This document shows, piece by piece, positions 7,481 to 41,772 of a DNA stretch of 64,000 nt (positions within the stretch are counted from its first letter, which is position 1; the number at the start of each line of letters is the position of its first letter). Source of the DNA: Vibrio taketomensis (GTDB lineage Bacteria; Pseudomonadota; Gammaproteobacteria; Enterobacterales; Vibrionaceae); contig NZ_AP019650.1 of assembly GCF_009938165.1 (NCBI RefSeq), positions 1,277,332 to 1,341,331 of the forward strand. The letters run 5' to 3'. A model generated the notes under the pieces. It was not told the origin of the DNA. It made no database searches and was given only the letters and a program-made list of their open reading frames with translations. The position numbers were made by a program, and so were the translations under genes.

Positions 7481-7506
7481 TGTCAGTTTGGTGACATCAA
7501 TTGTCA
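7481..7506. promoter_or_regulatory. TGTCA-type operator candidate upstream of aldolase
   Basis: The words TGTCA, TGACA and TGTCA start at 7481, 7492 and 7502, about one helical turn apart. It resembles the elements near yihU, tauE and yihV but with 11- and 10-bp steps. It lies about 100 bases upstream of the aldolase start codon. Confidence 0.5.
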
Positions 7507-7643
7507 TAAATGCACTCGCAATCACAAAATGCTCAATAATTGATAAATTGCCATAGACTTCTGAATAAATTTGCAAGGCAAGCCCTGTTCAATAACATAT
7601 TTATACAAATGGCTATTGGCTGATTTCATTACCAAATTTCGCT

Positions 7644-7668
7644 CAACCCCTTTAAACATTAGGGGTTG
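7644..7668. promoter_or_regulatory. Stem-loop in the aldolase upstream region
   Basis: CAACCCCT and AGGGGTTG form an 8-bp stem around a 9-base loop. There is no T run after it on either strand. The role is unknown; it may be an mRNA leader structure or a protein binding site. Confidence 0.5.
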
Positions 7669-7748
7669 GGGGCAAAATTTAGAGGTATCGATTGTGATGC
7701 TAAATGGACTTCTCTTATTTTGCTGACAGGCTTATTTGAGATTCTTTA

Positions 7749-7784
7749 ACAGCCTTTTAGCGTCTAAAAAGACCTAAAAGGCTG
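7749..7784 (-). promoter_or_regulatory. Long stem-loop downstream of yihU
   Basis: CAGCCTTTTAG pairs with CTAAAAGGCTG over 11 bp, and an inner GTC/GAC pair continues the stem. It lies about 100 bases after yihU on the minus strand. It has only a weak T-rich tail, so it may be an imperfect terminator of yihU. Confidence 0.5.
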
Positions 7785-7827
7785 GGTATTTAAGATGGTA
7801 TTTGTAAGTAATTATCGTTCTTAACCT

Positions 7828-7860
7828 TGTCAAATAGTGTTCGATTTATGTCACTTAAGG
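7828..7860. promoter_or_regulatory. TGTCA-type operator candidate downstream of yihU
   Basis: TGTCA, TGTTC and TGTCA begin at 7828, 7838 and 7849, and the last is followed by CTTAAGG. The yihV upstream element has the same layout and nearly the same end (CTTAAAG). This is the second such site in the yihU-aldolase gap. Confidence 0.5.
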
Positions 7861-7885
7861 CTAATAAACTACCACTATCGGGCTA

Positions 7886-8779
7886 TTACTTAACTTTTGG
7901 CTCTAAACCTGAGCTCACGCGTAACTGCTCAAGTACTGCTGTCCAGTCTTGACGGCCGCGGCCTGCTGCACGAGTAAGGTTGTACATTTCACGCGCAGCT
8001 GCACCACATGGCATTGGAACGTTAACTTGGTTTGCAAGGTCGAGTGCGATACCTAGATCTTTATGTGCAAGGTCAACCATGAATACTGGAGATAAATCGC
8101 CAGCTAGCACTTTGCCAGGCCATGTTGTTGTGAAGTGACCTTTACCTGCAGGGGTGCCACTCATCACTTTCATTGATGTTTCCCAATCTAGACCGATAGC
8201 TTCAGACAGGGTTGCCGCTTCTGCAGACAATGCGTTTAGTGCGATACTCATGTAGTTGTTGATGATCTTAACGCGAATACCTTTACCCGCACCGCCACAG
8301 TCAACAGTCTCGTTACCCATGCAATCAAATAGTGGCGCAGCACGTTCAACTTGCTCTTTCGTACCGCCAGCCATAATAAGAAGTTCACCGCGGACAGCAT
8401 GCTCAGAAGTACGGCCAACTGGCGCTTCCATCATTGAAAAACCTAGCTCAGACATTTGTTTGATTAGGCTATCTGTTTCAAGCGGGTGGATAGTTGACAT
8501 ATCAATTAGAAGCGCGTTTTTGTCTAACGTCGTTGTTACGCCGTTCTCACCCAGAAGAACGTTTTTAACCAGTGTGCCGTTTGGCAGCATCGTTACAACA
8601 AACTCAGCGTCTAGTGCCGCTTCAGCTGGTGATGTTGCCGCTGTTGCGCCTTGCTCAACCAGTTGTTGAACCGCAGCTTGATTGATATCGAAAACTTTAA
8701 GAGTGTGACCACCTTTGATTAGATTTAGCGCCATTGGCGTGCCCATTTGACCTAAACCGATAAAACCAATCGTAGACAT
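7886..8779 (-). CDS. yihU: Sulfolactaldehyde reductase YihU
   Basis: This 297-residue beta-hydroxyacid dehydrogenase matches E. coli YihU nearly throughout. It has the nucleotide-binding [12 protein letters not shown] at residues 6-17, [46 protein letters not shown] with the family's catalytic Lys at about 171, and the C-terminal [11 protein letters not shown]. YihU reduces sulfolactaldehyde to 2,3-dihydroxypropane-1-sulfonate (DHPS) with NADH, the last step of sulfo-EMP glycolysis. It is a single-gene transcript between the aldolase operon and the glycyl radical operon, and a TGTCA-type element lies about 77 bases upstream. Its DHPS product is the expected substrate of the neighbouring glycyl radical enzyme. 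Confidence 0.95.
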
Positions 8780-8855
8780 TTTTAATTCCTTTCACGTTCG
8801 CGGATAAGTAAGTTGGGAGTAATATAAACATAAATGACATTCCCAACCATTACAC

Positions 8856-8881
8856 CTGTCACATTTTGTTGTTTTATGTCT
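8856..8881. promoter_or_regulatory. TGTCA-type operator upstream of yihU
   Basis: On the plus strand TGTCA, TGTTG and TGTCT begin at 8857, 8867 and 8877, exactly 10 bp apart. The 26-base block is identical at 25 of 26 positions to the reverse complement of 12927-12952, between the glycyl radical enzyme and tauE. Such identity between two promoters points to one shared regulator. Confidence 0.75.
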
Positions 8882-9106
8882 ACTTCAGTAATTTTATGAT
8901 TATAAATTGAGCTGAACTTCTTTTTGTAGTATTTGTAACAACAATATGATGCAACCTATCCATGCTTTATCCAGAAAATGCGTCGCCACGGCCACAGCAA
9001 ATCATGCTCAAGATAGACAAAGAGAGCATTGGTTATTTTGTTGTATGAAAATGAGAGTGAAAATAAAGACTGAGTAAATGAGAAAGGTTATGGCTAAAGT
9101 GAAAGA

Positions 9107-9132
9107 GATGACGAACAGCCGTATTCGTCATC
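9107..9132 (-). terminator. Probable terminator of the glycyl radical operon
   Basis: GATGACGAA and TTCGTCATC form a 9-bp stem with an 8-base loop about 30 bases after the activase stop codon. The minus-strand tail is T-rich but interrupted, so termination may be weak. Confidence 0.65.
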
Positions 9133-9163
9133 TAAACAAAACAAGAGAGTGATTTAAGCGTAA

Positions 9164-10118
9164 CTAAGCGGCGTCATGCTCTTTAGTGCCAACACAGCAA
9201 TTAATACCACGCTGGTTGAAGTACTCGGCAATATCACTCACCTGCTTTTGGAACTCATGACGATCAAATTTCAGGTCTTGCATTTTGTATGGCAAACCTA
9301 GCGACTGGTATTTTTCTTCGCCTAAGCGCATAAAACTCAGCAGCTGCAGCACATTGACTCGCCCGTTGAGCTCATTTTGAATGAAATCAGCGGTCGCGCT
9401 GATGTTCTCTTGATTATCATTGATACTCGGAATCACCGGAATACGTAAAATCAGCTCTTTGCCAAGCTCAGTCAGCGATTTAATATTTTTGTGAATCTTA
9501 CGATTATCCACTCCGGTATAACGCTTATGAGTCTCACTATCCATTAACTTGAGATCAGAGATAAACAGATCAGTGTAAGGCAATACCTTTTCTATCCGGT
9601 TCCAGTTTGCGTAAAAGCTTGATTCGAGACATGTGTGGATCCCCTCTTGTTTACAGGCTTTAAATAGCTCATAAACAAAATCGCTTTGCAGCAATGGCTC
9701 ACCACCCGATACCGTCACGCCGCCACCCGAGCGGTCATAAAATCCTCGGTCTTTGCGAATCAGCTCCATGCAGGCTTCAACCGACATATACTCGCCCCAT
9801 TGCTTGATCGCTTCTGAAGGACACTCTTCGACACAACTCAAGCAGCCCGTACATTGATGACGGTCGATACTCTTAAGCATCGAATCAGAGTAAATCAACA
9901 TCTTGTTGTCCGGGCAAATCTCCAAACAAGAACCACAATGCTCGGTGGAGATACATTTATTGTGGTAAACCCCAACCTCTATTCGACGCTTAAAACTCTC
10001 AGGGTTTCCGCACCAATCACAGCGCAGCGGGCACCCTTTGAGAAAGATTTCTGTGCGAATACCGGGCCATCATGAAGGGTAAATCGCTGAATATTTAAAA
10101 CAATTCTAGGTCTGACAC
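9164..10118 (-). pseudogene. Glycyl radical enzyme activase (radical SAM), disrupted near its start
   Basis: The intact frame covers only the part after the first cysteine cluster. Upstream, the same frame continues through GIRTEIFLKGCPLRCDWC with the radical SAM motif CxxxCxxC, then meets a stop. Two single-base additions, one in the CC at 10062-10063 and one in the AAAA at 10097-10100, restore a full protein. It then begins at a GTG (10118) behind a GAGG site and reads through NIQRFTLHDGPGIRT, the usual start of this family. Two ferredoxin-like clusters follow (C-x5-C-x2-C-x3-C and CTGCLSCVEECP), then SGGEPL. The activase installs the glycyl radical on the enzyme encoded upstream. As written it would lack the SAM cluster and be inactive. 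I suspect base-calling loss, not decay. Confidence 0.85.
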
Positions 10119-10213
10119 AATTAACCTCAACCGTTGTTTAAAAACACAAATACCCAAACCACCGATTCGTCCATAACGTGACAAATGGCAGCTTGGGTAT
10201 CACAACTGGTTAA

Positions 10214-12745
10214 TTAAAACCTAAGTTCAGTACGTTGAATCAAATCATCTTGCAATGGTTTACCCAGTTCAACGAAGTAAGCGCTGTAACCGGCGACACG
10301 CACCAACATGTCTTTGTATAGCTCAGGATTTTTCTGCGCAGCGCGCATTTTCTCTGAGCTCATAATGTTGAATTGCACGTGCATACCTTGCTTACCAATG
10401 TACTCATCAACAAAGCTCAGCAAAATATCACGACCTTCTACGCCAGATACCGCATCTTCAGGGAAGCGTAAGTTAAGCAGCGTACCGTTAGTCGCCAAGC
10501 TATGGTCAACTTTGGTTACCGAGTTAATCACCGCCGTTGGGCCGCTAATATCGTGTGAACCACCTGCCGTATGCACTGGCCCCATGTTGTCAGAAATTGG
10601 CTCACCGTTCTTACGGCCATCGAGTGATGCGTTGGTGTATAAGCCCATACCCACGTTCGCGTTTACAGTGTAAACACCCGGGCTAAATTTGCCGCCACGC
10701 GGGTTTTCACGTCCTTTAATATGACGGCAGTAACATTCAAACATGAATGAGAACAGCTCATCTGCTTCATCGATATCGTTACCGTAATGCGGGATCTTCG
10801 AGCTATTCACCAAAGCGTAGAGCTTCTGATGACCATCCCAGTTCTCTTTTACGGCATCAAGTAACTGTTTACCCGTGTATTTTTTGTCATCAAACATCAG
10901 CTTCTTGATCGTCGCTAATGAGTCAGCACAAGTTGCAATACCTGCTGCTTGCGGCGCGGTACCATTGTATTTTGCGCCGCCGTAAGTCATATCTTTACCG
11001 GATTCAATACAGCCTTCAAAGAACGCAGAAATATATGGCGTTGGTTTGATCATGCGGTGCATTTTGTCAGTTACGTTCAAGCAACTGCACAACTGATCAC
11101 ACCAATAAGCAAACTGCTTATCAACACTCTCAAGCACTTCTTCAAACGATTGGTACGTTTCAAGACTACCGGTATCAGGGCCAAGTTGCATGCCCGCATT
11201 CGGGCCAGATAGAATGCGACCACCGTTGATCACCATTTCCATCATCTTAACCGTATTCACGTAACCCGCATCTAACCAGCCGTGCTCTTTACCAGGAATA
11301 GTTGGTTCAACGCAGCCCACTACCGCGTAATCACGCGCTTCTTCCTGAGTCACGCCTTTACCCAACATCGCTTTAATCGCTGGGCCATCGTTAAATAGTT
11401 TCGGGTGGCCGTAACCTGCGCGTACACATTCAATAGTTTTTAGTTTTAGCTCAATTGGCGTTTTGTCATGCAGACGCACACACACCCAAGGGTTCATCAT
11501 GCGAGTATGTGCTGACGCTTCCAGCATCAACATAGTCAGATCGTTGGTCGCATCGTTACCGTGAATATCCACACCACCAATCGTTAAGCTCTCACCACCA
11601 AAACCGCGACCGTTACGTACTTTTACCGTGCCTTTGTCTTTAAGCTTGGTTGGGTTGTTCATTTTCACGTAAAGCACTTCAAGTACTTCTAGAACAAACT
11701 CTTTTGATACGCCATTCTCTTGCACATCTTTGGTGTAGAACGGCAGCATCCATTGGTCCATACGACCGTAAGAAATCGAGTGACCATTGCCTTCAATTTG
11801 CGTCATGGTGACCGCAAAGTTGAAGAGCTGGGCAGCTTGCCAGAATGTTTGGGGCACACCACCCGCAATTTGGTAACAGTTGGCTGACATCGCTTGCAGC
11901 TCGTTCTTACGCTTTTCATCGCTTTCATTAAACGCCATATCTTCAGCAAGCAGCGCATAACGAGTGATGTATTTGATTGCCGCTTCTAATGCAATAATGG
12001 TCGCTTTGTAGTAATCGCGCTTATCACAGTAATCTGGATCTTGTTTTGAAAGCTTGGCGAACGCTTCTTGCGCTTGGAGCAATACGCCGCCGTAGCCCAA
12101 AGTCATCAGTTTGTTAAAGTCCATCGCGAAGTGACCGATACCCGCGAAGTGGTAGTTATTGGTCTGAAAGACTTTCTCACCCATGTGAGAGCCTTTCTTC
12201 TGATCATCATCAAGATGCGCAGTAATGAACTCGTTGGCACTCTTACCTTTCCAGTAAGCACATAACTCTAAAATTTCTGCGCGATCTTGCTCATTACGAA
12301 TATAAAACTGATCGTTAGAACGCTCTTCAAACGGCGAGTTAAGAATCTCATCGATGATCCAATCCACTGAAAACTCAGGGTAAATCGGTGATGCTTTTGC
12401 CGGTGCGGCAATCTCACCCAGAATCAAATCTTCATCATAGATGTTTAACGTCGAGTTAAGCAGGATGTTTTCAAACGCAATCGCACACTGAAGAATACGC
12501 GGCATCGCATCGTTATCACGGTATGCCTCGGTGACTAAACGTAATCTCTCTACGTCAATGTCGTATGGTCTATCTAAAAATGTTTGACGTAGGCGGTTAA
12601 CACGCGGGAACGGAGACCAATCAGCATGACCTACTTCATAACCAAGGCCGTACACCTTATCTACGGCTTCAGTACCAATCGCATCGGTGTGCGCTGTCGT
12701 TTTTAGCTCAAACAAGCTCTCTTTGTCTGCTTGGAAGTTTTCCAT
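10214..12745 (-). CDS. Glycyl radical enzyme, probable DHPS sulfolyase (HpsG-like)
   Basis: The 843-residue protein has the glycyl radical enzyme landmarks: GCVEP with catalytic Cys478 and Glu480, and a C-terminal RVAGYSAYF in which Gly819 carries the radical. The start at 12745 has a GAGG site 7 bases upstream; an extension to 12772 is open but lacks one. Enzymes of this group cut C-O, C-N or C-S bonds anaerobically. The neighbours decide the guess: yihU makes DHPS, the activase gene follows, and a sulfite exporter is divergent. DHPS sulfolyase, giving hydroxyacetone and sulfite, fits best. DHPS dehydratase (HpfG) would need an aldehyde-oxidising partner, which is absent. Isethionate lyase or a diol dehydratase remain possible. 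Family certain, substrate inferred. Confidence 0.85.
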   Translation of the reverse strand: MENFQADKESLFELKTTAHTDAIGTEAVDKVYGLGYEVGHADWSPFPRVNRLRQTFLDRPYDIDVERLRLVTEAYRDNDAMPRILQCAIAFENILLNSTLNIYDEDLILGEIAAPAKASPIYPEFSVDWIIDEILNSPFEERSNDQFYIRNEQDRAEILELCAYWKGKSANEFITAHLDDDQKKGSHMGEKVFQTNNYHFAGIGHFAMDFNKLMTLGYGGVLLQAQEAFAKLSKQDPDYCDKRDYYKATIIALEAAIKYITRYALLAEDMAFNESDEKRKNELQAMSANCYQIAGGVPQTFWQAAQLFNFAVTMTQIEGNGHSISYGRMDQWMLPFYTKDVQENGVSKEFVLEVLEVLYVKMNNPTKLKDKGTVKVRNGRGFGGESLTIGGVDIHGNDATNDLTMLMLEASAHTRMMNPWVCVRLHDKTPIELKLKTIECVRAGYGHPKLFNDGPAIKAMLGKGVTQEEARDYAVVGCVEPTIPGKEHGWLDAGYVNTVKMMEMVINGGRILSGPNAGMQLGPDTGSLETYQSFEEVLESVDKQFAYWCDQLCSCLNVTDKMHRMIKPTPYISAFFEGCIESGKDMTYGGAKYNGTAPQAAGIATCADSLATIKKLMFDDKKYTGKQLLDAVKENWDGHQKLYALVNSSKIPHYGNDIDEADELFSFMFECYCRHIKGRENPRGGKFSPGVYTVNANVGMGLYTNASLDGRKNGEPISDNMGPVHTAGGSHDISGPTAVINSVTKVDHSLATNGTLLNLRFPEDAVSGVEGRDILLSFVDEYIGKQGMHVQFNIMSSEKMRAAQKNPELYKDMLVRVAGYSAYFVELGKPLQDDLIQRTELRF
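10662..10674. other. parS2-like palindrome inside the glycyl radical enzyme gene
   Basis: TTTACAGTGTAAA matches the Vibrio chromosome 2 centromere consensus (NTTTACANTGTAAAN) at every fixed position. It lies in the codons for VYTVN near the C-terminus of the enzyme, about 49 kb from the cluster of such sites at the end of the window. Confidence 0.6.
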
Positions 12746-12769
12746 AGCTAACCTCATGAAATATAGAAT

Positions 12770-12840
12770 CAAAATGCCAATGCTCGCGCCTACTCATTGG
12801 AGATTGGTCTTCTACGAGCGATTCAAACATTGGCATTTTG
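12770..12840. promoter_or_regulatory. Long inverted repeat in the leader of the glycyl radical enzyme gene
   Basis: CAAAATGCCAATG (12770-12782) pairs perfectly with CATTGGCATTTTG (12828-12840), and an inner GCTCG/CGAGC pair strengthens the fold. The base of the stem ends about 15 bases before the Shine-Dalgarno. In the mRNA it would form a stable leader stem-loop; as DNA it could be a pair of operator half-sites. Confidence 0.65.
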
Positions 12841-12926
12841 ACGACGTATTAAGGCCTAAAACACCAAGCCATTATAAAAAACCGCTCAATTTTGTCTGGG
12901 GCGATGGTCACAAATCGAAACCATAT

Positions 12927-12952
12927 AGACAAAAAACAACAAAATGTGACAG
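12927..12952. promoter_or_regulatory. TGTCA-type operator between the glycyl radical enzyme gene and tauE
   Basis: This block is the reverse complement of the yihU upstream element with one mismatch in 26. It lies about 70 bases before the tauE start and about 180 before the glycyl radical enzyme start. It could serve both divergent promoters. Confidence 0.75.
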
Positions 12953-13021
12953 ATGCAATGGTAATTAATCCTAATAAATTTATAGTGACGCTTCATTCAC
13001 TACGCTCTATCAAATGGATAT

Positions 13022-13762
13022 ATGGACACCACGATAATTCTCATCTCGTTGATCATAGCTCTGGCAGGCTTTACACAAGGTCTTACTGGGTTTGGGTCTG
13101 CACTTGTTTCCGTTCCCCTACTTTCTCTGATCGTAGGTGCACAAACGGCAGTGCCAATTGCGGGTATTTTTGGCTGGTTGGTAACACTACCAATCGTGTG
13201 GAAAATGCGACATTCAATTCAACGTCAAACCGGTTTGATCCTGTTTGCGGGTTCTGTACCAGCCTCTTTTGTTGGGGCAAAACTATTGGCAAGCATGCCG
13301 TCTCAATACATTTTGTTGACGATGGGTGCGGTGCTCATTATCTCAAGCATTCACTCGTTACGTGCAACTAAGCCTTTGTTTAAAGAGGCTTCTATGCCAC
13401 TAACGATCGGTGCTGGTTTTACCTCAGGCGTACTTGGAGCAAGTGTTGGTGAGTCAGGTCCACCAGTTATTGCTTACACATCAATGCAGCCTTGGACAGC
13501 GGACCAAACCAAATCAACGTTAGCGTTCTTCTTTATGCTACAAATGATTGGTGCCAACGTAAGCTTCTGGAATGAAGGCTTGATTACAGACGAAGTTGTT
13601 TCACACGTGATCTCTGCTCTACCTGCTTTCGCAATTGGTTTGGCAGGCGGTATGATCGGTTACCACTTCCTACAGAAGTACAAGATCGACTACCACAAGA
13701 TTGTGCATAGCTTCCTACTCGTCATGGGCTTTATGCTTGTGTTCAAAAATGTAAGTTTTTAG
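13022..13762 (+). CDS. TauE/SafE-family membrane protein, probable sulfite exporter
   Basis: This 246-residue protein is a TauE/SafE (DUF81) permease with about seven or eight membrane helices. The N-terminal GFTQGLTGFGSALVSVPLL is the first half of the family's internal repeat, and GFTSGVLGASVGESGPPVIAY at about residues 135-155 is the second. Members export sulfite or sulfoacetate, among other anions. It is divergent from the glycyl radical enzyme gene and shares an operator-like block with yihU. Export of the sulfite set free from DHPS is therefore the natural job. The ligand is inferred from position only. Confidence 0.85.
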   Translation: MDTTIILISLIIALAGFTQGLTGFGSALVSVPLLSLIVGAQTAVPIAGIFGWLVTLPIVWKMRHSIQRQTGLILFAGSVPASFVGAKLLASMPSQYILLTMGAVLIISSIHSLRATKPLFKEASMPLTIGAGFTSGVLGASVGESGPPVIAYTSMQPWTADQTKSTLAFFFMLQMIGANVSFWNEGLITDEVVSHVISALPAFAIGLAGGMIGYHFLQKYKIDYHKIVHSFLLVMGFMLVFKNVSF

Positions 13763-13792
13763 ACATTTCGAAATTTTTGGTGGATTTTAAAC

Positions 13793-13826
13793 AAACGGCA
13801 GTCATCACACTGCCGTTTTTGTTTAG
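13793..13826 (+). terminator. Rho-independent terminator of tauE
   Basis: AAACGGCAG and CTGCCGTTT form a 9-bp stem with an 8-base loop, followed by TTTGTTT on the plus strand, about 30 bases after the tauE stop. Confidence 0.9.
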
Positions 13827-13872
13827 GTACTCGTAGTCAATTAAGTCGACTTCATGGGAGACAGCGTCTCAC

Positions 13873-14643
13873 TTAGAAATTGAAGGCAAACCCTGCCCCT
13901 AAAGCACTCTCATCAAAATTGTAGTTGGAGATCGTTAAACCGTAACCCGTTTCAGCTTTGACATAGCCATTCAAACCTTGATAAAGCGGAAAACGCCACG
14001 ACACACGGTAAAACCCCTTCTCCCAGTCTTCGGTAAATAAGTTGGCAATGGTCAGCTTAATTTCCTGATTAGAAGATGGCTGCCAACCGAGTTCAACCTC
14101 CCCATACCCTAAGAAATCGACAATATCTGGGTTATATTTTTTGCTACCCACATTGACCCAAGGCTTAAAGCGTAAAAAGCCTTGATCAAATTGCCACTTC
14201 GCATCGGCATAGGCTCGGTTCCAACTGACCTCTTCATCGCCACCCGCACCATTAGATTGGTGTTCAAAGCCCAGTGAGACTTGCCAAATGTCATACACCA
14301 ATTGATAGAAGAGTTCGGGATTGTACTCATGATCTCGAAAGTAGGCGGAATCGTCATACGCTTCCCAGTTTGAACGCTGCGTATAGCCAACAAATAGACC
14401 GTGTTCATCCCATGTTAGCAGCTTGTATTTCACACTTAATTGAAATTGAACAAAGGTATCTTTTGCTGCGTGCCCATTTGGGTTGAGCGGTTCATAGCGG
14501 GCTTGATTTACTTTGCTTTCGTGGTAAACCGGCAATAAATAATTATCTCTATTGGCAGAAAAACGACTCTCTTCTGCATGGGAGGTAGAGAGGAACACCA
14601 CAGGTAATATCGGCACTACCCATCCAACGTTTAACCTCATCAT
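13873..14643 (-). CDS. pldA: Outer membrane phospholipase A
   Basis: The protein of about 256 residues has a signal peptide ending near SHAEE and then a beta-barrel sequence ending in Phe (GAGFAFNF), as outer membrane proteins do. The active-site signature is clear: GFEHQSNG holds the catalytic His and Ser, and SWNRAYAD holds the catalytic Asn and neighbouring residues. OMPLA hydrolyses phospholipids in the outer leaflet when the membrane is disturbed. Two adjacent ATGs (14643 and 14640) lie just behind AGGGGG. It forms a single-gene unit convergent with tauE. Confidence 0.93.
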   Translation of the reverse strand: MMRLNVGWVVPILPVVFLSTSHAEESRFSANRDNYLLPVYHESKVNQARYEPLNPNGHAAKDTFVQFQLSVKYKLLTWDEHGLFVGYTQRSNWEAYDDSAYFRDHEYNPELFYQLVYDIWQVSLGFEHQSNGAGGDEEVSWNRAYADAKWQFDQGFLRFKPWVNVGSKKYNPDIVDFLGYGEVELGWQPSSNQEIKLTIANLFTEDWEKGFYRVSWRFPLYQGLNGYVKAETGYGLTISNYNFDESALGAGFAFNF

Positions 14644-31530: not shown

Positions 31531-31537
31531 ACTCGTT

Positions 31538-32920: not shown

Positions 32921-33706
32921 ATGGCCATTATTGATCAGCAAATTGGATTCGATCCCGATCATTTAAACGCCCCTGTTATTGGTATTGCAGCCGACGTAGG
33001 CAAACATGACTCAGGCATGCACCATCATGAAAAAGGGCAATTACTCTTTGCTCCTCAGGGGTGTATGAGCTTTGCTTTAGACAATGCGTTATGCATTTTA
33101 CCGCCGACTAAAGCGGTGTGGATTCCACCATCAACCCAGCATCGAGCGATGATGACCAATGTCGTTGCATACCGCTCGTTATACTTCGATTGCTCGGTAT
33201 TTGACTGCCCACATGAGATTACCGTGATTGAAGTCGATGCTTTACTAAAAGCGCTTATCGATAAAATGGCACTATGGGCATGGGATAAACCTGAAGAGGA
33301 GACAACAAAAACCACGGCGCTATTTTGGGAGGAGTTTTATGCGGCAAAACGACACTCTTTCCAACTGCCTTTACCATCCCATCGCAGGCTCAAACCCTTC
33401 CGTGAACAGTTGATGCAGGATTCTTACTTAGTACCGGATCTTACTTCGCTAGCAAACTCCATCGGGGCAAGTAGTAAAACCATCACGCGCTTATTCAAAT
33501 CCGAAACCGGAATGTCGTATCAAGACTGGAAACAGCAATGGCGCTTGCTCAAAGCGATTGAATTACTTTCTCGTGAAATGCAAGTGAGTGATGTTGGCCA
33601 CCAGCTAGGGTTCTCTTCTGACAGTGCCTTTATTGCCTTTTTTAAGAAACAGACAGGGCGAACACCGCTGAGTTTTATCAATCATAAATCGCTGGTCTTA
33701 AAATAA
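32921..33706 (+). CDS. AraC-family regulator with cupin domain
   Basis: The 261-residue protein has an N-terminal cupin-like domain (HHHEKGQLLFAPQG and VWIPPSTQHRAMM) and a C-terminal AraC double helix-turn-helix, with SLANSIGASSKTITRLFKSE and VGHQLGFSSDSAFIAFFKKQ. Proteins of this layout are usual local regulators of an adjacent MFS gene, as here. Confidence 0.9.
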   Translation: MAIIDQQIGFDPDHLNAPVIGIAADVGKHDSGMHHHEKGQLLFAPQGCMSFALDNALCILPPTKAVWIPPSTQHRAMMTNVVAYRSLYFDCSVFDCPHEITVIEVDALLKALIDKMALWAWDKPEEETTKTTALFWEEFYAAKRHSFQLPLPSHRRLKPFREQLMQDSYLVPDLTSLANSIGASSKTITRLFKSETGMSYQDWKQQWRLLKAIELLSREMQVSDVGHQLGFSSDSAFIAFFKKQTGRTPLSFINHKSLVLK

Positions 33707-33751: not shown

Positions 33752-33782
33752 CATAAAAAAACGGCTTCCGAAGAAGCCGTTT
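33752..33782 (-). terminator. Rho-independent terminator of the block B operon
   Basis: ACGGCTTC and GAAGCCGT form the core of a stem with a 4-base loop, extended by A/T pairs; seven T follow on the minus strand. It ends the dctP2-yihQ-dhaKL-gldA transcript and may also serve the convergent araC gene. Confidence 0.9.
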
Positions 33783-33814
33783 CACGCCTTTTATTATACC
33801 TCAAACAAGAGGGT

Positions 33815-34897
33815 TTATAGACCTAGCTTATGCGCTGTTAGAATCGCTGCGTAAACAGACTTAGCTGTTACTGGGAAAGGCATATTGTGAATAGTTTCGC
33901 CTTCCGCACATGATGCTTCTGCCACTTCCATCAATTTTTCATGGTTAAGTTCTTTCACGCCCATTTGGTGTAGGTTAGTTGGTAGGCCTACTGCGCGGCA
34001 GAAGTTAAGTACTTCTTCGATTTCAGCTTGCGCTGCGTTTTCTAGTACTAGCTGAGTTAGCGTACCGAATGCCACTTTCTCACCGTGTAGCAGGTGGTGA
34101 CACTCTTCAAGCTTAGTTAGGCCGTTGTGGATTGCGTGTGCACCCGCAAGACCTGAGCTTTCAAAACCGATACCAGATAGGTAAGTGTTCGCTTCGATGA
34201 TGTTCTCAACCGCTTTGGTTGAGACACCATTTTCAACCGCTGCTTTTGCTTTTACGCCATCAGCGATCAGTGTTTCGTAACATAGTTTCGCTAGCGCTTG
34301 CGCTGAGCGAGTTGGTGCACCACCCGCCATTGTTGCTTTACCAGATAGGCCGTTTGCACGTGCTTCAAAGTAAGTTGATAGCGCATCACCCATACCAGCC
34401 ACTAACGTGCGTACTGGAGCCGCTGCGATGATGCCCGTGTCCATAATGACCATGTTCGGGTTTTGCGGGAATAGTAAGTACTCACTAAACTCACCTTCAG
34501 GCGTATAAATTACGGCTAGCGCTGAAGTTGGTGCATCAGTGGATGCGATAGTCGGTACGATAACGACTGGCACTTTTGCATAGTAAGCAACCGCTTTTGC
34601 TGTATCCAGTGTTTTACCGCCACCAAAGCCAATGATGACATCGTTGCCTTGCTCATTACGCACATCGATTAGACGCTCAATCTCTACGCGACAACATTCG
34701 CCACCAAAGGTATTGAAGTTCACTTCTAGACCTTCACCGACAATGCTCGTTTCCGCACGGTCACGTACTAAGCCCATTACGAAATCATCAGCGATTGCTA
34801 GTGGCTTTTTGCCAAATACCGATACGTATTTACCGATGTTGTCTAGTGAGCCTTCGCCTTGGATGTATTTGCTAGGAGAGATGATGATGTTATCCAT
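33815..34897 (-). CDS. gldA: Glycerol dehydrogenase
   Basis: This 360-residue iron/zinc-type alcohol dehydrogenase follows E. coli GldA throughout: KYIQGEGSL, GGGKTLDTAKA for NAD binding near residue 93, PTIASTDAPTSAL, and metal ligands Asp in GMGDALS, His in GAHAIHNG and His in LLHGEKV. It interconverts glycerol and dihydroxyacetone with NAD, and also reduces hydroxyacetone to 1,2-propanediol. It closes the operon that starts with a TRAP binding protein and sulfoquinovosidase. It can thus oxidise the glycerol released from sulfoquinovosyl glycerol, or handle the hydroxyacetone from DHPS cleavage. Confidence 0.93.
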   Translation of the reverse strand: MDNIIISPSKYIQGEGSLDNIGKYVSVFGKKPLAIADDFVMGLVRDRAETSIVGEGLEVNFNTFGGECCRVEIERLIDVRNEQGNDVIIGFGGGKTLDTAKAVAYYAKVPVVIVPTIASTDAPTSALAVIYTPEGEFSEYLLFPQNPNMVIMDTGIIAAAPVRTLVAGMGDALSTYFEARANGLSGKATMAGGAPTRSAQALAKLCYETLIADGVKAKAAVENGVSTKAVENIIEANTYLSGIGFESSGLAGAHAIHNGLTKLEECHHLLHGEKVAFGTLTQLVLENAAQAEIEEVLNFCRAVGLPTNLHQMGVKELNHEKLMEVAEASCAEGETIHNMPFPVTAKSVYAAILTAHKLGL

Positions 34898-34954
34898 GAT
34901 GGAATCCTTTTAAATTATTCTGTTTCTCGTCATCAAAAAATGACGTTATTGGAA

Positions 34955-34971
34955 GGGCGCAGCTTGCGCCC
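34955..34971. promoter_or_regulatory. Intercistronic hairpin between dhaKL and gldA
   Basis: GGGCGCA and TGCGCCC pair with a 3-base loop, and a smaller CGTCAT/ATGACG stem lies next to it. There is no T run, so it may stabilise or process the message. Confidence 0.5.
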
Positions 34972-34992
34972 CGATATAATTATTTGTGCCGA

Positions 34993-36615
34993 TTAGAACT
35001 GGCTGAATACTGTTTCTACCGCAAATGCGCCTGGATCTTTGGTGCCGTTTAGGCTGTCACTGTTAAGGTAAGAAGAGCGGCCTGCTTTCGCGCTTGTCAT
35101 ATTAACGGTCGCTTCTGCACCTGCTTTCGCCGCTGCGATTGCCGCAGTAAAGCCGTCTTGTGCCCAAGCTTCTAGTGCTGGGTGTAGTGCATCAATCATG
35201 GTGCGATCGCCCGGTTTCGCACCGCCGTAAGCCATCATTTGACCAAGACCTGCTTGTAGCGCTTGTGGCAAAGAACCGTTTTGTTCAAAGTCACGACCCG
35301 CCGCAGTGAACATGATAGAAAGTAGAACACCTGAAGAGCCACCCATTACAGAGGTTAGGCAATCTGCAATCGTCGTCATCAGTTTTGCTTTATCTTGAAG
35401 CGGTAGATTGTTTGCTTCGAGTTGAGCCAATACCTTGCGCGCACCGGCTGCAAAGGTAGAACCCGTATCACCATCACCAACGATTGAATCTAGGTGGTTT
35501 AGCTCACCCTCGATATCGATGATCGCTTGACATACTTTGCTTAGCACAAGTGCCGTTTCTTGGTCGTGCGATGGCATGTAAGCCTTCTTCGCGATTTGGT
35601 TTTGGCACTTAGTCACAGGCACTTCACGGCGTGCAACTGCACCTGGCCATGCCGCTGTTTCTACTGGAGAAACAAGCGCTTTAGCGATTTCTTCGGTCAG
35701 TTGAATTGTTGAGATAGAGAAGCCTTTCATGTCAATCGCCGTCATTAGCGCACCGCTTACGATGAACTTGGTGTTTTGACCCAGTTCAGATTCCATGACT
35801 TCTTTTGCAACAATGTTCATCTCGATTGGTGATAGGCCGCCAAGGTTGTTAAGTAGAATCGCATTGTCCGTGGTTGGTTTCGCTTCAAGTAGCTTGCTCA
35901 CCATAGTGGTCACAAGATCTTTTGCTTTTGGCAGATCGATCGTTTCGATGCCAGCTTCGCCGTGAATACCAAGGCCAAGCTCTGCTTTACCTTGTGCAAT
36001 ACGGTCGTTGCTTTCACCTGGTAGTGAACAGCTAGTCAGTGCCACACCGATAGAAGCGGTTTTTTGGTGTGCGTCGATTGCCGCTTGTTTTACTTCTTCT
36101 AGCGTGCCGCCGTTTTCAGCCACATAACCCGCTACTTTTTGCACAAACAATGTACCTGCGATGCCGCGAGGTTGAGGGTTGCCCGGAATAGAGATGTCAT
36201 CACCGACGACGATCAGATCAACCTTACGGCCCATCTCTTTGGCTTTTTCTACCGCCAGACCAAAGTTTAGACGGTCACCAGTGTAGTTTTTGATGATAAC
36301 AAGACAGCCTGCATCGCCAGTCACGTGCAAAATTGCGTTAAGTACTGAATCGACGCTTGGCGCAGCGAATAGGTCGCCACATACCGCAGCCGTTAGCATG
36401 CCTTTACCCACAAAACCTGCGTGTGCTGGCTCATGACCAGAGCCACCACCACAGATCAGTGCCACTTTATCTTTGTTCCAATCATTGCGAGCGACAACTT
36501 TGATGTCATTTTCAAAGTCGAGGAAAGTTAGGTTATCAAGAGTAGAGGTGTAAAGAGTGCCTTGGATTGAATCCATTACGAACGACTCTTTATTATTTAA
36601 AATTAGATCAGCCAT
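34993..36615 (-). CDS. ATP-dependent dihydroxyacetone kinase (DhaK-DhaL fusion)
   Basis: The 540-residue protein is a single-chain kinase of the Citrobacter type. The DhaK half has GGGSGHEPAHAGFVGKGML, GDDISIP and GIHGEAG with the His that binds the ketone covalently. The DhaL half has IVGDGDTGSTFAAG with Mg-ATP binding Asp residues and MGGSSGVLLSI. The ATG at 36615 has CTGGA upstream; a TTG at 36639 is possible. It phosphorylates dihydroxyacetone to DHAP with ATP. Between yihQ and gldA it completes a glycerol-to-DHAP route. Confidence 0.93.
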   Translation of the reverse strand: MADLILNNKESFVMDSIQGTLYTSTLDNLTFLDFENDIKVVARNDWNKDKVALICGGGSGHEPAHAGFVGKGMLTAAVCGDLFAAPSVDSVLNAILHVTGDAGCLVIIKNYTGDRLNFGLAVEKAKEMGRKVDLIVVGDDISIPGNPQPRGIAGTLFVQKVAGYVAENGGTLEEVKQAAIDAHQKTASIGVALTSCSLPGESNDRIAQGKAELGLGIHGEAGIETIDLPKAKDLVTTMVSKLLEAKPTTDNAILLNNLGGLSPIEMNIVAKEVMESELGQNTKFIVSGALMTAIDMKGFSISTIQLTEEIAKALVSPVETAAWPGAVARREVPVTKCQNQIAKKAYMPSHDQETALVLSKVCQAIIDIEGELNHLDSIVGDGDTGSTFAAGARKVLAQLEANNLPLQDKAKLMTTIADCLTSVMGGSSGVLLSIMFTAAGRDFEQNGSLPQALQAGLGQMMAYGGAKPGDRTMIDALHPALEAWAQDGFTAAIAAAKAGAEATVNMTSAKAGRSSYLNSDSLNGTKDPGAFAVETVFSQF

Positions 36616-36699
36616 AGTTATTCCAGAAATTTTGTTCAAACGAGTTTGGGGAGTACCTTCAAAATTGATGGCACTGATTGTTGTTTTAATAATGAATTT

Positions 36700-36729
36700 G
36701 GTTAGCCAGCCAAGACGGGCTGGCTAACC
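36700..36729. promoter_or_regulatory. Strong intercistronic hairpin between yihQ and dhaKL
   Basis: GGTTAGCCAGCC and GGCTGGCTAACC form a perfect 12-bp stem with a 6-base loop. It has no T tail, so it is probably a stability or processing element that sets relative expression. Confidence 0.65.
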
Positions 36730-36794
36730 CATTTCGTGACAACTTGTCATTGCAGTAAGCAAGTTACTCGCGGTGCCAAGTTGTTAGAGTACTA

Positions 36795-38801
36795 CTAGAA
36801 TTGCTTGATGCCAGCTAGCAATTCTGCATCCTGAGATTGCTTGCGGTAGAACACTGGTGGTTGACCGATTGGTGCGTCAACGCTCACCCAGCCACCTGTG
36901 AAGGTTTCACCAGTCCATACATGAACCCACTCATCTTCTGGCAGGTACAGTTCTTTCACTGTTTCACCTTGGTTGTACACCGGTGCAACCATCAAATCGC
37001 GACCAAATAGGTATTGGTACTGAATTTGGTACGCTTCAGAGTCTTGCTCGTAGTGCATGAACAGTGGGCGCTGTACTGGCATACCTTGGGTTGCGTTCTC
37101 TTCTACCGCTGCTTTGATGTACGGCTTAAGATGCTTGTAAATCTTAGTCATACGCGCTAAGTGAGCTAGCGTTTCAGCGTCTGTATCAAATTGGTGGTTA
37201 TCGCCTGGACGGTTACCTTCATGGCTACGCATGATTGGCGTAAATGCCGCCATTTCTGCCCAGCGTTGGAACAATTCTTTAGAACGAGTGTTACCGTGTA
37301 ACGTAGTGTAGCCGCCGATATCGCTATGGCTGATACCGTTACCCATTAGGCCAGCAGAAAGCGCAGCTGGAATAACCGAAGCTAGACCGTCGTCTTTTTC
37401 CCAGATAACCGATTGGTCGCCCGCCCATAGTGCGTGACAGTAACCTTGAATACCGGTGCCACCAGCGCGCATGAAGAATAGAATGTCATCAGTTTTACCC
37501 GCTTCTTCAATCGCTTCGTGTTGCACTTTCGCCCAACGGTAAGGCCATTTGTTGTGTTCAATTTCAGCGCTTACGCCGTTGTATAGAGAACAATCCGTTG
37601 GTAAGTACTCACCAAAGTCACCCATCCAGCCATCAAGGCCAAAATCGATCATGTTCTTCTTGATTACGCCTTTGTACCATTCACAGGCTTCAGGGTTGGT
37701 AAAGTCAACCACGCCACAGTCAAACTCACCAAAATCGACAACGTATTTAGAGCCGTCTTCTTTTGTAGCTAGGTAGCCTTTTTCAAACGCTTCGTTGTAT
37801 AGCGGGAAGTCTTCCAGAACGTATGGGTTGATGTAACCAAGGAAGCGCACGCCTTGCTCTTTTAGCTCATGGATTTTAGTGTCTAGACCAGGGTATAGGT
37901 CTGCATTCCACTGCCAATCCCATTGTAGGCGCTTACCGAATGACGTCATCTTGATGCCTTGCCAGTCTTGACACCATGCACCGGCAACTTCAACACCTGC
38001 CGCTTTTGCTGCTTCTACTTTTTCAATCGTGATATCCGTACCACCTTGAATACCCAGAATCACACCGTTGTAAACCCACTCAGGGAGTGCTGGTTGACGA
38101 CCAAATACACCTGTGATGTTCGTCATCAGTGCTGGGAATGATTCTTCTGCGTCAAACAGTAGATACTCAGGAATATTCCAGCATTGCAGCTCGTGGTACT
38201 CAGCGTGAGTAAAATCGAAATCTGCGTAAGCACGCGTTTCTAGGTGGCAGAAGTATTTCTTGTCAGAAACAAACGTTGGTTGTGGGTAGTTGGTGGTGTA
38301 GTAATCACCGCCCGCTTTGTCTTTGACGTCAGCTTGCCAAGTGGTGTAAGTGTTCTTGTTACGACCTACGCCTGGTTCAGAGCTCCATAGCGGGAAGTTT
38401 TTACCACGTAGGTTTAGGTAACTTAGCTGTTCGCCACAACCGTAAACCGCTTCTGACTCTGTCGCTGCTACACGTAGCCAAAAACGATTGTATTTCTCAT
38501 CCAGAGCTGTGAATTCAACTTTTAGACGAGACTCTGTCGTTTCAAACATACGCGCTTCTAGTACTGCTTCACCGTCAAGGTTGAAAGTCACTACGATTTG
38601 ATCTGCGCTCTCAGTGATAGAAAACTTCTTAAGCGGCAGACGCTCTGATACGTAATCAGAAATATCGAAGTTACCACGGTACATGTCAAAAGTGCCTTGG
38701 CCGATACCTAGGTATACCACAGGGCTTACTTGTGAGTGTTCAAATACAGTTCTGTTTTTATGGCTAATAGTAAAGCCAGAAGGGGTTTGGATAAGTTTCA
38801 T
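36795..38801 (-). CDS. yihQ: Sulfoquinovosidase YihQ (GH31)
   Basis: The 668-residue glycosidase follows E. coli YihQ. The catalytic nucleophile is in WMGDFGEYLPTD, the acid/base in WAGDQ, and the sulfonate-binding residues reported for YihQ are kept: Gln in CQDW, Arg and Trp in FGKRLQW, and Tyr in DIGGYTT. It hydrolyses sulfoquinovosyl diacylglycerol-derived SQ-glycerol to sulfoquinovose and glycerol. No signal peptide is seen, so it acts in the cytoplasm after uptake. It lies between a TRAP binding protein and the glycerol-using genes. Confidence 0.95.
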   Translation of the reverse strand: MKLIQTPSGFTISHKNRTVFEHSQVSPVVYLGIGQGTFDMYRGNFDISDYVSERLPLKKFSITESADQIVVTFNLDGEAVLEARMFETTESRLKVEFTALDEKYNRFWLRVAATESEAVYGCGEQLSYLNLRGKNFPLWSSEPGVGRNKNTYTTWQADVKDKAGGDYYTTNYPQPTFVSDKKYFCHLETRAYADFDFTHAEYHELQCWNIPEYLLFDAEESFPALMTNITGVFGRQPALPEWVYNGVILGIQGGTDITIEKVEAAKAAGVEVAGAWCQDWQGIKMTSFGKRLQWDWQWNADLYPGLDTKIHELKEQGVRFLGYINPYVLEDFPLYNEAFEKGYLATKEDGSKYVVDFGEFDCGVVDFTNPEACEWYKGVIKKNMIDFGLDGWMGDFGEYLPTDCSLYNGVSAEIEHNKWPYRWAKVQHEAIEEAGKTDDILFFMRAGGTGIQGYCHALWAGDQSVIWEKDDGLASVIPAALSAGLMGNGISHSDIGGYTTLHGNTRSKELFQRWAEMAAFTPIMRSHEGNRPGDNHQFDTDAETLAHLARMTKIYKHLKPYIKAAVEENATQGMPVQRPLFMHYEQDSEAYQIQYQYLFGRDLMVAPVYNQGETVKELYLPEDEWVHVWTGETFTGGWVSVDAPIGQPPVFYRKQSQDAELLAGIKQF

Positions 38802-38898
38802 TCGAACAGCTTCCGAAATTTAGAGAAAATAAGGGCGCACTTTTGGTTTTCACCGCAAGAGTCGTGCGCCTAGTTTGCTTATATCTGGATTTGGTTGG

Positions 38899-38947
38899 TT
38901 ACTGTTTGCCGCCGCGCGGTAATCTGTGAGGCCGCGTCAAACAGTAA
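38899..38947. promoter_or_regulatory. Large hairpin between dctP2 and yihQ
   Basis: TTACTGTTTG and CAAACAGTAA pair over 10 bp, with an inner CGCGG/CCGCG stem. It lies just after the binding protein gene, a common place for structures that protect the abundant binding protein message from decay. Confidence 0.65.
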
Positions 38948-38958
38948 GTACCTGAGAA

Positions 38959-40008
38959 TTATTTAAACTGAATGTCGTAATCAGCTTGGATCTTCGCTTC
39001 ACACGTTTTGATTTCATTTTCAAAACGTTGTAGCCATTTCTCACCTTCAGCGCCAGTTGCTGCTAAGAACTCAGCTTTTACAGGAGCAGCGGCAGTGATG
39101 AACGCTTGTTTTTCAGCTTCAGTTGGGCTGTAAACTTTACCGCCAGCTTTCTTAAACTCTTCATACGCTGCGTATTCGCGGTGTTTAGGGTAAGAACGTA
39201 GGTATTGGTTTTGTGCCGCAATACCATCGATAACCACTTGTTTCAGCTCATCTGGGAATGCTTTGAATTTCATGTCGTTGAATACCCAAGCGCCACCCAT
39301 GTAACCGTGACCATCAAGGATCATGTAACCGATACTTTCATGGAATTTGTTCATGATGATATCTACGATACCGTTCTTAGTACCGTCAACCATGCCTGTT
39401 GATAGCGCCGTGTATACTTCTGGCCATGCGATTGGTGTTGGTGCACCGCCCAGTGCTTTTACTAGGTCTTGCTGAGTTTTAGCTGGAACCGTACGCAGTT
39501 TTAGACCTTGTACGTCACCCGGAACCTTCACTTCTTTCTTAGTGGTTGCGATGTTACGCCAGCCACCAGAGTTAGAAACCGCCATTAGACGCACGTTTGG
39601 CGCACGTTGCATCAGCTCTTTACGTACGTCAGCAATAAGTTGTTCGTTGTCGTACACACACTCTGCTACGCGGTCATTTGGTAGCAAGTATGGAAGGTCA
39701 AATGCGCCTACTGGTTGCCAGAAGCTGCCGAGCTCAGGAATAGTAGTTTGGAAGTAGTCAAACATGCCTGCTTGTACCCCAGCGATACACTCTTTCGCGT
39801 TCGCACACAATTGGCCTGCAGGGTAGATATCTACTTGAATTTGGCCGTTTGAACGAGATTCAACATAGTTTTTAAGAACTAACAACGACTGGTGGTTGTA
39901 GCTGTCTGCTGTCGTTACGTGTGGAATGGTAAGTTTGTATTCCGCAGCGTTTGCAGCACCAGCTGCAAGAATTGAAGCAGTGGCAAGACCAAGTAGTGTT
40001 TTCTTCAT
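38959..40008 (-). CDS. dctP: TRAP transporter substrate-binding protein (DctP family), copy 2
   Basis: This 349-residue protein with signal peptide (to about AANA) is a close paralogue of the protein at 3397-4443. It has the same SYNHQSLLV start, QLC...KECIAG, LPYLLPNDRVAECVY and LRTVPAK with the ligand-binding Arg. It has no permease genes next to it and heads an operon with yihQ. It may use the DctQM at 4510-6434. Being tied to yihQ, it may prefer sulfoquinovosyl glycerol, while copy 1 prefers free SQ; this is inference. AAGGA precedes the ATG. Confidence 0.9.
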   Translation of the reverse strand: MKKTLLGLATASILAAGAANAAEYKLTIPHVTTADSYNHQSLLVLKNYVESRSNGQIQVDIYPAGQLCANAKECIAGVQAGMFDYFQTTIPELGSFWQPVGAFDLPYLLPNDRVAECVYDNEQLIADVRKELMQRAPNVRLMAVSNSGGWRNIATTKKEVKVPGDVQGLKLRTVPAKTQQDLVKALGGAPTPIAWPEVYTALSTGMVDGTKNGIVDIIMNKFHESIGYMILDGHGYMGGAWVFNDMKFKAFPDELKQVVIDGIAAQNQYLRSYPKHREYAAYEEFKKAGGKVYSPTEAEKQAFITAAAPVKAEFLAATGAEGEKWLQRFENEIKTCEAKIQADYDIQFK

Positions 40009-40094
40009 GTTGTTTCCTTATACATTATTGGTGCGGATCTTGAACTAGGATTCGTAGGGTTAGTAGCATCAAGAACCGTGGATACAAATAGGAA

Positions 40095-40622
40095 CTAATT
40101 TGTTTGAGCTTGTAATTTTTGTTGTTTTCTTAACCTAAAAATGGTGATTGTCAGCATGCTCGCATTGAACAAATCGTTAAGCAGCCCACCGTATGAACCG
40201 ACTAACGCCGCATTCACCATCCAAGTTAACGTGCAAATCAAAAACGCGATTCGCATACGCATACCTTCCGCAACAAACAAGGCATAACAACTGATGCATG
40301 ACGCGATGGCAGGTAATAGATCACGTGGCTCTGAGTAGAAATAGATACTCATGCCGATTTGCACGATGAGGAATAAGCAGAAGACGTGGTAACCTTTATA
40401 TTTGACCGAAACCAATGCGCGAAAAGAATTCACGAATAAGTTCAGTCCAGCAACCAAAGCGCCTAATAAGGTGTAATGAACCGCAAAGGTCAAGCAAGAC
40501 AAACAAATGAGGGCGCGCATGCGGTTATCATTTATTGTGGATGAAACGCATAGGTTTAAACCTAATGCTACAAATCCTAATGCTTGAACTAGAGTTTCAT
40601 TCATAAACAAATCTACGCTCAT
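40095..40622 (-). CDS. YgjV-like inner membrane protein
   Basis: The protein of about 175 residues has six predicted helices and resembles YgjV (Imp-YgjV family): LVQALGFVALGLNLCVSS near the start and NSFRALVSVKYKG between helices 3 and 4. The start is uncertain, with Met codons at 40682, 40622 and 40604. The function of the family is unknown. It lies upstream of dctP2 on the same strand with an 86-base gap and could be part of the same regulon. Confidence 0.75.
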   Translation of the reverse strand: MSVDLFMNETLVQALGFVALGLNLCVSSTINDNRMRALICLSCLTFAVHYTLLGALVAGLNLFVNSFRALVSVKYKGYHVFCLFLIVQIGMSIYFYSEPRDLLPAIASCISCYALFVAEGMRMRIAFLICTLTWMVNAALVGSYGGLLNDLFNASMLTITIFRLRKQQKLQAQTN

Positions 40623-40789
40623 TTCTCGACGAACAATCTGGTAATAGATTGAAGGTAACGGCAAGTTATACATAAAGTTCAATAACTTATAAATGTTAGA
40701 ACTTGTCGTTTTTCTTACATGAAATGACTATAAAATACATATTTGATTAGTTATAATGAATAAAATTCAGTTTTCGATTCCAAATTAGA

Positions 40790-41650
40790 ATGGATATAGA
40801 TTTACTTCGCACTTTTTGTCAGCTCGCGGAAGACAAGAACTTTCGAGTGGCCTCACAACACCTTTACATCACTCAATCTGCGCTGACGAAAAAGATTCAA
40901 CGCCTTGAGGAAAACTTAAATGTTGCATTATTTGATCGCGGTCGCCATGGCGCGGAATTAACCCCTATGGGTAAGGTTTTGCTGCCAGAAGCCAAGCGCG
41001 TCTTAAAAGGGTTTGAGTCATTTCAACGCTTGGCGAGTTTTGTTGCCGAGGGTACATCGGGCCACCTTAATATCGGCTTTGGTATTTCTTCCTTTCATGA
41101 AGCCCCCAACTACATCGCCAAATTTAAGCAAGAGTTTCCTAACGTACACGTTACGCTTAACGATTACCCATCACACAAGCTAGTTGAAGAATTACGTTTG
41201 GGTCAGTTGCAACTCGGGTTTGACCGTTTACCTGTTGAAGCCCCTTTAAAAGCCATTCCTCTCTTCTCTGACCGCTTAGCGATCGCGATTCATGAAGAAG
41301 AAAAAATAAACTTGGACAATTTATGGGCCTCACTCAGCCACTACAACTATTTAGGGCTGAGCCAAAGCAAAAACCCGACCTTGAATAAGCACATTGCCAC
41401 CTATTTATGGGAAGCAAAACAGCGACCTGTCGTGGTTGAAGAGGCACATGATTTGATCACCGCACTGGCACTGGTGTCAGCGCGTTTAGGCTACACCATC
41501 ATTCCTGCAAGTGTGGCTCGGATCAGCCAACCACAAATCCGTTTTATTCCTTTAACCGGAGAGCATGCCGAGTGGTCAGTCGGCCTACTATGGAATTCTG
41601 ATATCACAGATCCCGTACGCGAGGCCTTTATCCGTAAAGTCGAAAGCTAA
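40790..41650 (+). CDS. LysR-type regulator, probable regulator of SQ genes
   Basis: The 286-residue protein has a LysR winged helix in residues 1-60 (FRVASQHLYITQSALTKKIQRLEE) and a substrate-binding domain after about 90. It is divergent from ygjV-dctP2-yihQ and precedes yihV, the usual place for a local activator. E. coli uses a DeoR-type repressor (CsqR) for its yih genes, so control here would be different. Its ligand may be SQ or an intermediate. Confidence 0.88.
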   Translation: MDIDLLRTFCQLAEDKNFRVASQHLYITQSALTKKIQRLEENLNVALFDRGRHGAELTPMGKVLLPEAKRVLKGFESFQRLASFVAEGTSGHLNIGFGISSFHEAPNYIAKFKQEFPNVHVTLNDYPSHKLVEELRLGQLQLGFDRLPVEAPLKAIPLFSDRLAIAIHEEEKINLDNLWASLSHYNYLGLSQSKNPTLNKHIATYLWEAKQRPVVVEEAHDLITALALVSARLGYTIIPASVARISQPQIRFIPLTGEHAEWSVGLLWNSDITDPVREAFIRKVES

Positions 41651-41740
41651 CTATTTATATTTCTATACTCAAGTAACCATTCAGCCCACCTCACCGCAAT
41701 ACACCACAAACAAATGTGGGCTGAACCTAAACGTAAGCAA

Positions 41741-41772
41741 TGTCACATAATGTCATTATGTGTCACTTAAAG
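41741..41772. promoter_or_regulatory. Triple TGTCA operator upstream of yihV
   Basis: TGTCA occurs at 41741, 41751 and 41761, exactly 10 bp apart, and the last is followed by CTTAAAG. The inner bases also form CACATAAT-GTC-ATTATGTG. It lies about 90 bases before the yihV start and resembles the elements at 7828, 8856 and 12927. Confidence 0.75.

Follow-up and report, generated by a model that had tools for sequence, protein, structure and literature searches.

A conserved triple TGTCA element at sulfosugar-breakdown genes of Vibrio taketomensis and its probable reader, a CsqR-type repressor encoded outside the gene set

CsqR (YihW) of Escherichia coli is a DeoR-family regulator which, in the accessible parts of PMC12608037 and PMC8249747, is reported to bind the gap between yihU and yihV and to be released by sulfoquinovose (SQ). 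The accessible text of PMC5816610 also reports binding of CRP at yihU/yihV in E. coli. The motifs of another DeoR-family regulator, RhaR, are direct repeats with a period of 10-11 bp, as given in excerpts of PMC3870299. In excerpts of PMC13372026, Vibrio is reported to degrade SQ in coastal water, and SQ raises the proteins of the sulfo-Embden-Meyerhof-Parnas (sulfo-EMP) pathway in V. mediterranei. Here we describe an element of three TGTCA-type boxes in a stretch of 64,000 nucleotides of Vibrio taketomensis (contig NZ_AP019650.1, positions 1,277,332 to 1,341,331; hereafter the window), which carries two blocks of SQ-breakdown genes.

Similar to E. coli, V. taketomensis and its relatives combine an orthologous DeoR-family regulator, the same divergent gap and TGTCA boxes 10 bp apart. 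The system described here differs in having three boxes, a CRP-like box at a fixed distance, the inclusion of the hpfG/tauE gap and a regulator gene that has moved away from yihV. RhaR regulons are alike in pairing a sugar regulator with a direct-repeat motif of 10-11 bp period, and differ, as far as the available excerpts of PMC3870299 go, in the sugar, in the letters of the motif and in having two repeats instead of three. Sulfo-EMP genes accompanied by hpfG, as found here, are an enzyme set already described for HpfG-extended sulfoglycolysis in Vibrio (PMC9594981, PMC11489063, in part); the shared operator is an addition to it, control of these genes not being covered in the accessible portions of those two papers.

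Three copies of the element are present in the window, located upstream of yihU (8857..8881, plus strand), in the hpfG/tauE gap reading towards hpfG (12927..12951, minus strand) and upstream of yihV (41741..41765, plus strand). The initial annotation had reported near identity of the first two, and a recount gave the same result: 25 of 26 positions agree between 8856-8881 and the reverse complement of 12927-12952. The perfect TGTCA boxes that it placed exactly 10 bp apart at 41741, 41751 and 41761 before yihV are likewise present. A crude count over the 15 letters of three boxes, compared with eight random sequences of the same dinucleotide make-up, reached 13 or more at two places in the window, 41741 and 41751, and never in the random sequences. 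Counts of 12 or more occurred five times in the window and zero to five times in the random sequences, and therefore the sites at 8857 and 12951, with 12 each, are unremarkable by this measure. With a matrix built from the sites of relatives, these two scored 41.2 and 41.5 and the site at 41741 scored 19.7, while the best scores in five random sequences ranged from 4.2 to 9.9.

Across the 4.3 Mb genome, the pattern TGTCACATTTTGTYRNTTTNTGTC with up to three mismatches matched four sites, and its reversed control matched none; the motif is thus rarer at random. Three of these matches are the sites of the window, at 8857 (+), 12951 (-) and 41741 (+, three mismatches). The fourth lies beyond the window at C2:58840-58863 (-), beside a DeoR-family gene. 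The bare triple TGTCA with up to two mismatches was found 11 times genome-wide against four for its control, 41741 alone being perfect, so that counting boxes alone is weak evidence. Judged from sequence and conservation, the boxes are real candidate switch sites before sulfosugar-breakdown genes. Letters outside the boxes are strongly conserved as well: among 47 sites of relatives, CC and AAC stand 4-10 bp before the first box, and position -10 is a C in 94%.

The DeoR-family gene beside the fourth site (C2:57611-58381, minus strand) lies on the same chromosome as the window, and the site sits between this gene and the mutarotase-type gene galM (C2:59012-60073, +). The encoded protein possesses the domains PF08220 and PF00455 and shares 47% identity with E. 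coli CsqR, and by sequence it is the CsqR/YihW ortholog. The DNA-reading helix is the same in both, VSTQTIRRDIKKL in this protein and its Vibrio relatives and VSTQTVRRDIRKL in E. coli. The distance from csqR to yihV is about 79 kb if the chromosome is circular, and otherwise 1.26 Mb along the contig, whose end is the end of the window.

Among 227 genomes of the genus, own genome counted, yihV was detected in 30 (E at most 1e-80) and csqR in 29 (E at most 1e-70), and in all 28 same-genus relatives having csqR, this gene starts directly behind yihV. The motif, allowing two mismatches, was present in 33 of the 227 genomes, namely all 29 with csqR and four of the 198 without it (G061, G028, G187 and G225, each with a single match at two mismatches). 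This association has a Fisher p of 1e-32, kinship disregarded. In agreement with the expectation that the motif be conserved in orthologous promoters, 28 of 29 same-genus relatives have it before yihV, always in one orientation; it is absent there from G171 and from the locus L014 of another family. A V. mediterranei locus (L155) carries the site without mismatch. The thirtieth yihV genome, G171, encodes a regulator of 39% identity and has no motif. Its locus (L127) may be noted as a natural negative, in which a diverged CsqR (39%) and a yihV of 53-54% accompany the absence of the motif.

We also examined a set of loci found by alignment to CsqR and not through the motif, comprising the best 80 of 144 loci in named genomes. 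Three loci without yihU or yihV were skipped, and Photobacterium, Alginatibacterium and Reinekea were counted as Vibrio-like. When each locus was scanned in full, the top matrix match lay in the yihU/yihV gap, the region expected for a CsqR regulon, in 20 of 20 Vibrio-like loci and in 43 of 51 other non-alphaproteobacterial loci, chance being about 1.4% per locus, and, with weak scores, in five of six alphaproteobacterial loci. Of 49 enterobacterial yihU/yihV gaps, a set that includes E. coli K-12 and excludes three longer gaps, 43 contain a TGTCA pair exactly 10 bp apart; any other spacing occurred at most four times. E. coli and many enterobacteria (L114) have a second conserved array in this gap, TGTCTGTTTTTGATCGTATTTGTAATT, with boxes also 10 bp apart.

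For the hpfG/tauE gap, the csqR-anchored loci provide an independent count: the gap is in view at five of them (L157, L161, L163, L170 and L222), and all five carry the site with zero to two mismatches. Wherever hpfG was in view together with its upstream region, a site was found within 500 bp (18 of 18; a 19th hpfG is cut by the edge of its stretch). This larger tally is not independent, because most of the stretches were picked through motif-scan matches.

The consensus of CRP is TGTGA-N6-TCACA. In 37 stretches from relatives, which hold 49 sites (47 distinct), a CRP-like 16-mer with at least 8 of 10 letters (background 0.0005 per position) was found in 42 of the 47 sites at an offset of 38, 39 or 40, counted from the first repeat, and at no other offset between 0 and 53. 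The five sites without the box comprise two before yihS, one inside hpfG, one near yihQ and one in L151, where the true hpfG site has a CRP-like box of 7/10 letters by eye. In V. taketomensis, the box is kept at three of the four sites, each with 8/10 letters: at hpfG (12897..12912, minus strand, offset 39), at yihV (41780..41795, plus strand, offset 39) and at csqR. The corresponding stretch at yihU (8895..8910, plus strand, offset 38) retains 5/10 letters and appears decayed.

Taken together, a CsqR-type repressor encoded outside the window very probably reads the triple boxes. Several observations point to CsqR. The site has been kept beside csqR in a place where yihV has decayed and yihU is missing; the 10-bp TGTCA pair recurs in the enterobacterial gaps that are the reported target region of E. 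coli CsqR; and, by analogy, the direct-repeat precedent within the DeoR family suits boxes with a spacing of 10 bp. Other observations weigh against this assignment. Site and csqR both accompany the pathway, therefore co-occurrence alone cannot name the binder, and a universal regulator would give the same co-occurrence. The reversed control matched nine of the 227 genomes, with 52 matches in G225 alone; by the same token, the four stray motif matches are of the size expected by chance. In eight of the 43 non-alphaproteobacterial loci the top match was a second array, TGTCTGTTTTTGATCGTATTTGTAAT, and not the TGTCA pair, and two more of the 43 read in the opposite direction. The protein of C2:57611-58381 reached no NCBIfam cut-off, and within its group this csqR has diverged furthest. 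Furthermore, most of the second block (yihQ, dhaK, gldA and trapP2) has no site.

The initial annotation named the LysR-type protein encoded at 40790..41650 (plus strand) as an unproven candidate, and asked for other regulator genes nearby. Its doubt was well placed, and the likely regulator turned out to be the DeoR-family CsqR beyond the window. That the LysR protein binds the boxes and controls both blocks is very unlikely, even though its gene adjoins yihV in the window and a LysR protein of at least 73% identity occurs in 11 of the 28 csqR-bearing relatives, several times in the same region. The remaining 17 of the 28 carry the operator without such a close ortholog, so the protein is not present wherever the site is, and genome G210 encodes a LysR protein of 80% identity yet lacks yihV, csqR and the motif. 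In relatives the gene stands beside ygjV/trapP2, away from yihV. The boxes are direct repeats and contain no T-N11-A inverted half-sites, whereas the lysR/ygjV gap has a conserved inverted repeat of its own, of the TGTAAG/CTTACA type. In the window, it reads TGTTAG...CTTACA at 40690-40720 and is common to L106 and L107. LysR proteins act at places of this sort; this repeat is perhaps the protein's own site, and the protein probably acts there. On presence and absence, position and type of site, LysR was set aside as the binder, and CsqR is the most likely reader.

The box of PhoB consists of TGTCA repeats as well, with a period of 11 bp. A winged-helix response regulator such as PhoB would account for the letters and for the direct-repeat layout, but the enterobacterial gaps with 10 bp spacing stand against a single gap with 11 bp, and the four genomic sites are all at sulfosugar genes. 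We consider this explanation hardly credible, and a Pho box was rejected on the spacing of 10 instead of 11 bp. A further alternative accepts CsqR as the binder but sees it as a dual regulator that acts with CRP as one composite complex, and not as a plain repressor. The fixed distance of 38-40 bp that 42 of 47 sites keep to their CRP-like box speaks for such a complex, but CsqR of E. coli is mostly reported as an SQ-released repressor in the accessible parts of PMC12608037 and PMC8249747, and the yihU site of the window has lost its CRP-like box. The dual regulator therefore appears unlikely, and repression by CsqR is the preferred explanation.

The position of csqR far from the gene set points to a rearrangement or replacement in this lineage. 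Close relatives (L142, L147, L148, L139 and L151) have the order yihU - site - yihV - csqR - galM - hpfH - hpfG - site - tauE. In the window, hpfH comes next after yihU, and yihV, csqR and galM are gone from between them. About 123 bp upstream of yihU in the window match the yihU/yihV gap of relatives, and the operator reads away from yihU as in that old gap. The region C2:57.2-60.8k holds csqR, a yihV remnant, an operator, galM and a second ygjV together; the genes flanking it adjoin in two close relatives (L239 and L240), and L241 is arranged otherwise. The decayed yihV remnant occupies the csqR-galM gap (L009 6383-7012, C2:58.4-59.0k, beyond the window) and covers residues 162-270, with an E value of 6e-11 against a small database and 77% of 87 bp matching at the DNA level. 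A search of the yihU/hpfH, lysR/yihV and yihV-downstream stretches revealed no convincing remnant; the yihV remnant was found in the csqR-galM gap only. The working yihV adjoins lysR.

Compared with G102 and G162, yihU, aldolase and hpfG are 95-99% identical, while yihV is 80%, galM 72-73% and csqR 64% identical; yihU and aldolase taken by themselves agree at 97-99%, and among those relatives themselves csqR is at least 90% identical. The genes hpfH (82-83%) and trapQ (83-84%), which are in place, are also less alike than their neighbours. The CsqR of this genome departs at 10 of 116 columns invariant in 25 others (one is a GTG start only), and the other rows at three at most. Clades of the nearest relatives exclude the V. 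taketomensis gene with good support (csqR 100/99, yihV 100/97), and the csqR branch is long. These data are compatible with the transfer of a diverged copy and equally with fast evolution once the genes had moved. We tentatively propose, as a possibility somewhat short of even, that the operator is one composite element (CsqR triple repeat plus fixed-distance CRP box) which travels with sulfosugar and DHPS genes, and that in this lineage a diverged copy took the place of regulator, mutarotase and kinase, or was the source from which they were reshuffled, with the old operators kept.

As to mechanism, we infer binding, repression, ligand and the action of CRP as follows. CsqR would bind the direct repeats, which with their 10 bp spacing lie on one helix face, and would shut the yihU, yihV and hpfG/tauE promoters as well as its own. 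The inducer that releases it would be sulfoquinovose or a closely related derivative. In the absence of better sugars, cyclic AMP-CRP would activate from the box located 38-40 bp from the first repeat. A single regulator would thus couple the breakdown of sulfoquinovose with the processing of the resulting (2S)-3-sulfopropanediol (DHPS) by HpfG. The initial annotation had suggested a single regulator for both blocks. The shared site, with boxes one helix turn apart, does link genes of both, but within the second block it is limited to yihV. Its other gene starts scored -16.2 (yihQ), 0.4 (dhaK), -6.9 (gldA) and -17.2 (trapP2/ygjV), against random bests of 4.2-9.9, and only background scores were obtained for the window stretches before yihS, trapP and hpfH. 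As only yihV carries a site there, the operator ties yihV to the first block and does not extend to the rest of the second.

The analysis provides CsqR with a predicted operator that can be tested; the accessible CsqR literature does not state the binding motif. In Vibrio, the same predicted sulfosugar switch would also govern the glycyl radical DHPS dehydratase. The analysis further names a candidate regulator, at least 79 kb away, for a gene set that has lost its own. Should the composite element and the moved module be correct, the locus would be a natural test of repressor drift or swap without loss of sites. Accessible texts on CsqR/YihW, Vibrio sulfoquinovose and hpfG contained no statement of this operator and none placing hpfG under CsqR. 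The available part of PMC8464067 mentions YihW sequence patterns in its supplement, and given that supplement and the main CsqR paper (Shimada 2019), the CsqR motif may already be in print. The operator sequence, the predicted inclusion of hpfG in the regulon and the putatively moved, diverged regulator module beside a decayed yihV appear to be new.

The genes of the first block were assigned as follows. Aldolase gene ald (6518..7378, minus strand; class II, TIGR00167) and yihU (7886..8779, minus strand; sulfolactaldehyde reductase, NF012005) are above the respective cut-offs. The DHPS dehydratase activating enzyme hpfH (9164..9925, minus strand) has NF048008 as top match with 444.7 bits, which in the open reading frame as listed remains under the cut-off of 500. 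The glycyl radical enzyme hpfG (10214..12772, minus strand; DHPS dehydratase) is above the cut-off of NF048009, and its true start, read by eye, is probably the ATG at 12745. The gene tauE (13022..13762, plus strand) encodes a sulfite exporter of the TauE/SafE family (PF01925). The sulfofructose kinase gene yihV (41843..42748, plus strand) shares 57% identity with E. coli YihV, and NCBIfam places its product in the wider sugar kinase family only. An AraC-type regulator gene was also seen in the window at 32921.

Two related arrays near the aldolase gene had been proposed in the initial annotation, and one of them persists in weaker form. The array in the yihU-to-aldolase gap (7828..7853, plus strand) has a matrix score of 0.7, which is chance level in the window, and two TGTC/TGTY boxes 10 bp apart are present in eight of nine aligned relatives (G131 and G115, with other genes in between, were left out of the alignment). 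The aldolase operon may have a weak site here. The array at 7481 was rejected as a triple operator, the top matrix score in 7470-7520 being -16.4; it is a different motif, a TGTCA/TGACA inverted pair with a further TGTCA 21 bp away. The wider aldolase promoter is conserved nonetheless: what is kept there is the TGTCA/TGACA pair and a two-box element, TGTCT-N5-TGTTA (7450..7464, plus strand), and not a triple repeat. TGTC-N6-TGTTA occurs in eight of eight relatives whose aligned piece reaches that position, which makes the element a possible weak site. In many relatives a conserved AAGTGATACATAACTAACAGAAAT-like element (window 7450-7479) precedes the ald or yihS operon, at 20-100 bp from its first gene, and on the opposite strand it presents a pair of TGTY boxes with 10 bp spacing. 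Genes for two membrane proteins of the ygjV type, 61% identical to each other, are located at L009 8163-8678 and at window 40095-40682, both close to parts of the sulfosugar gene set.

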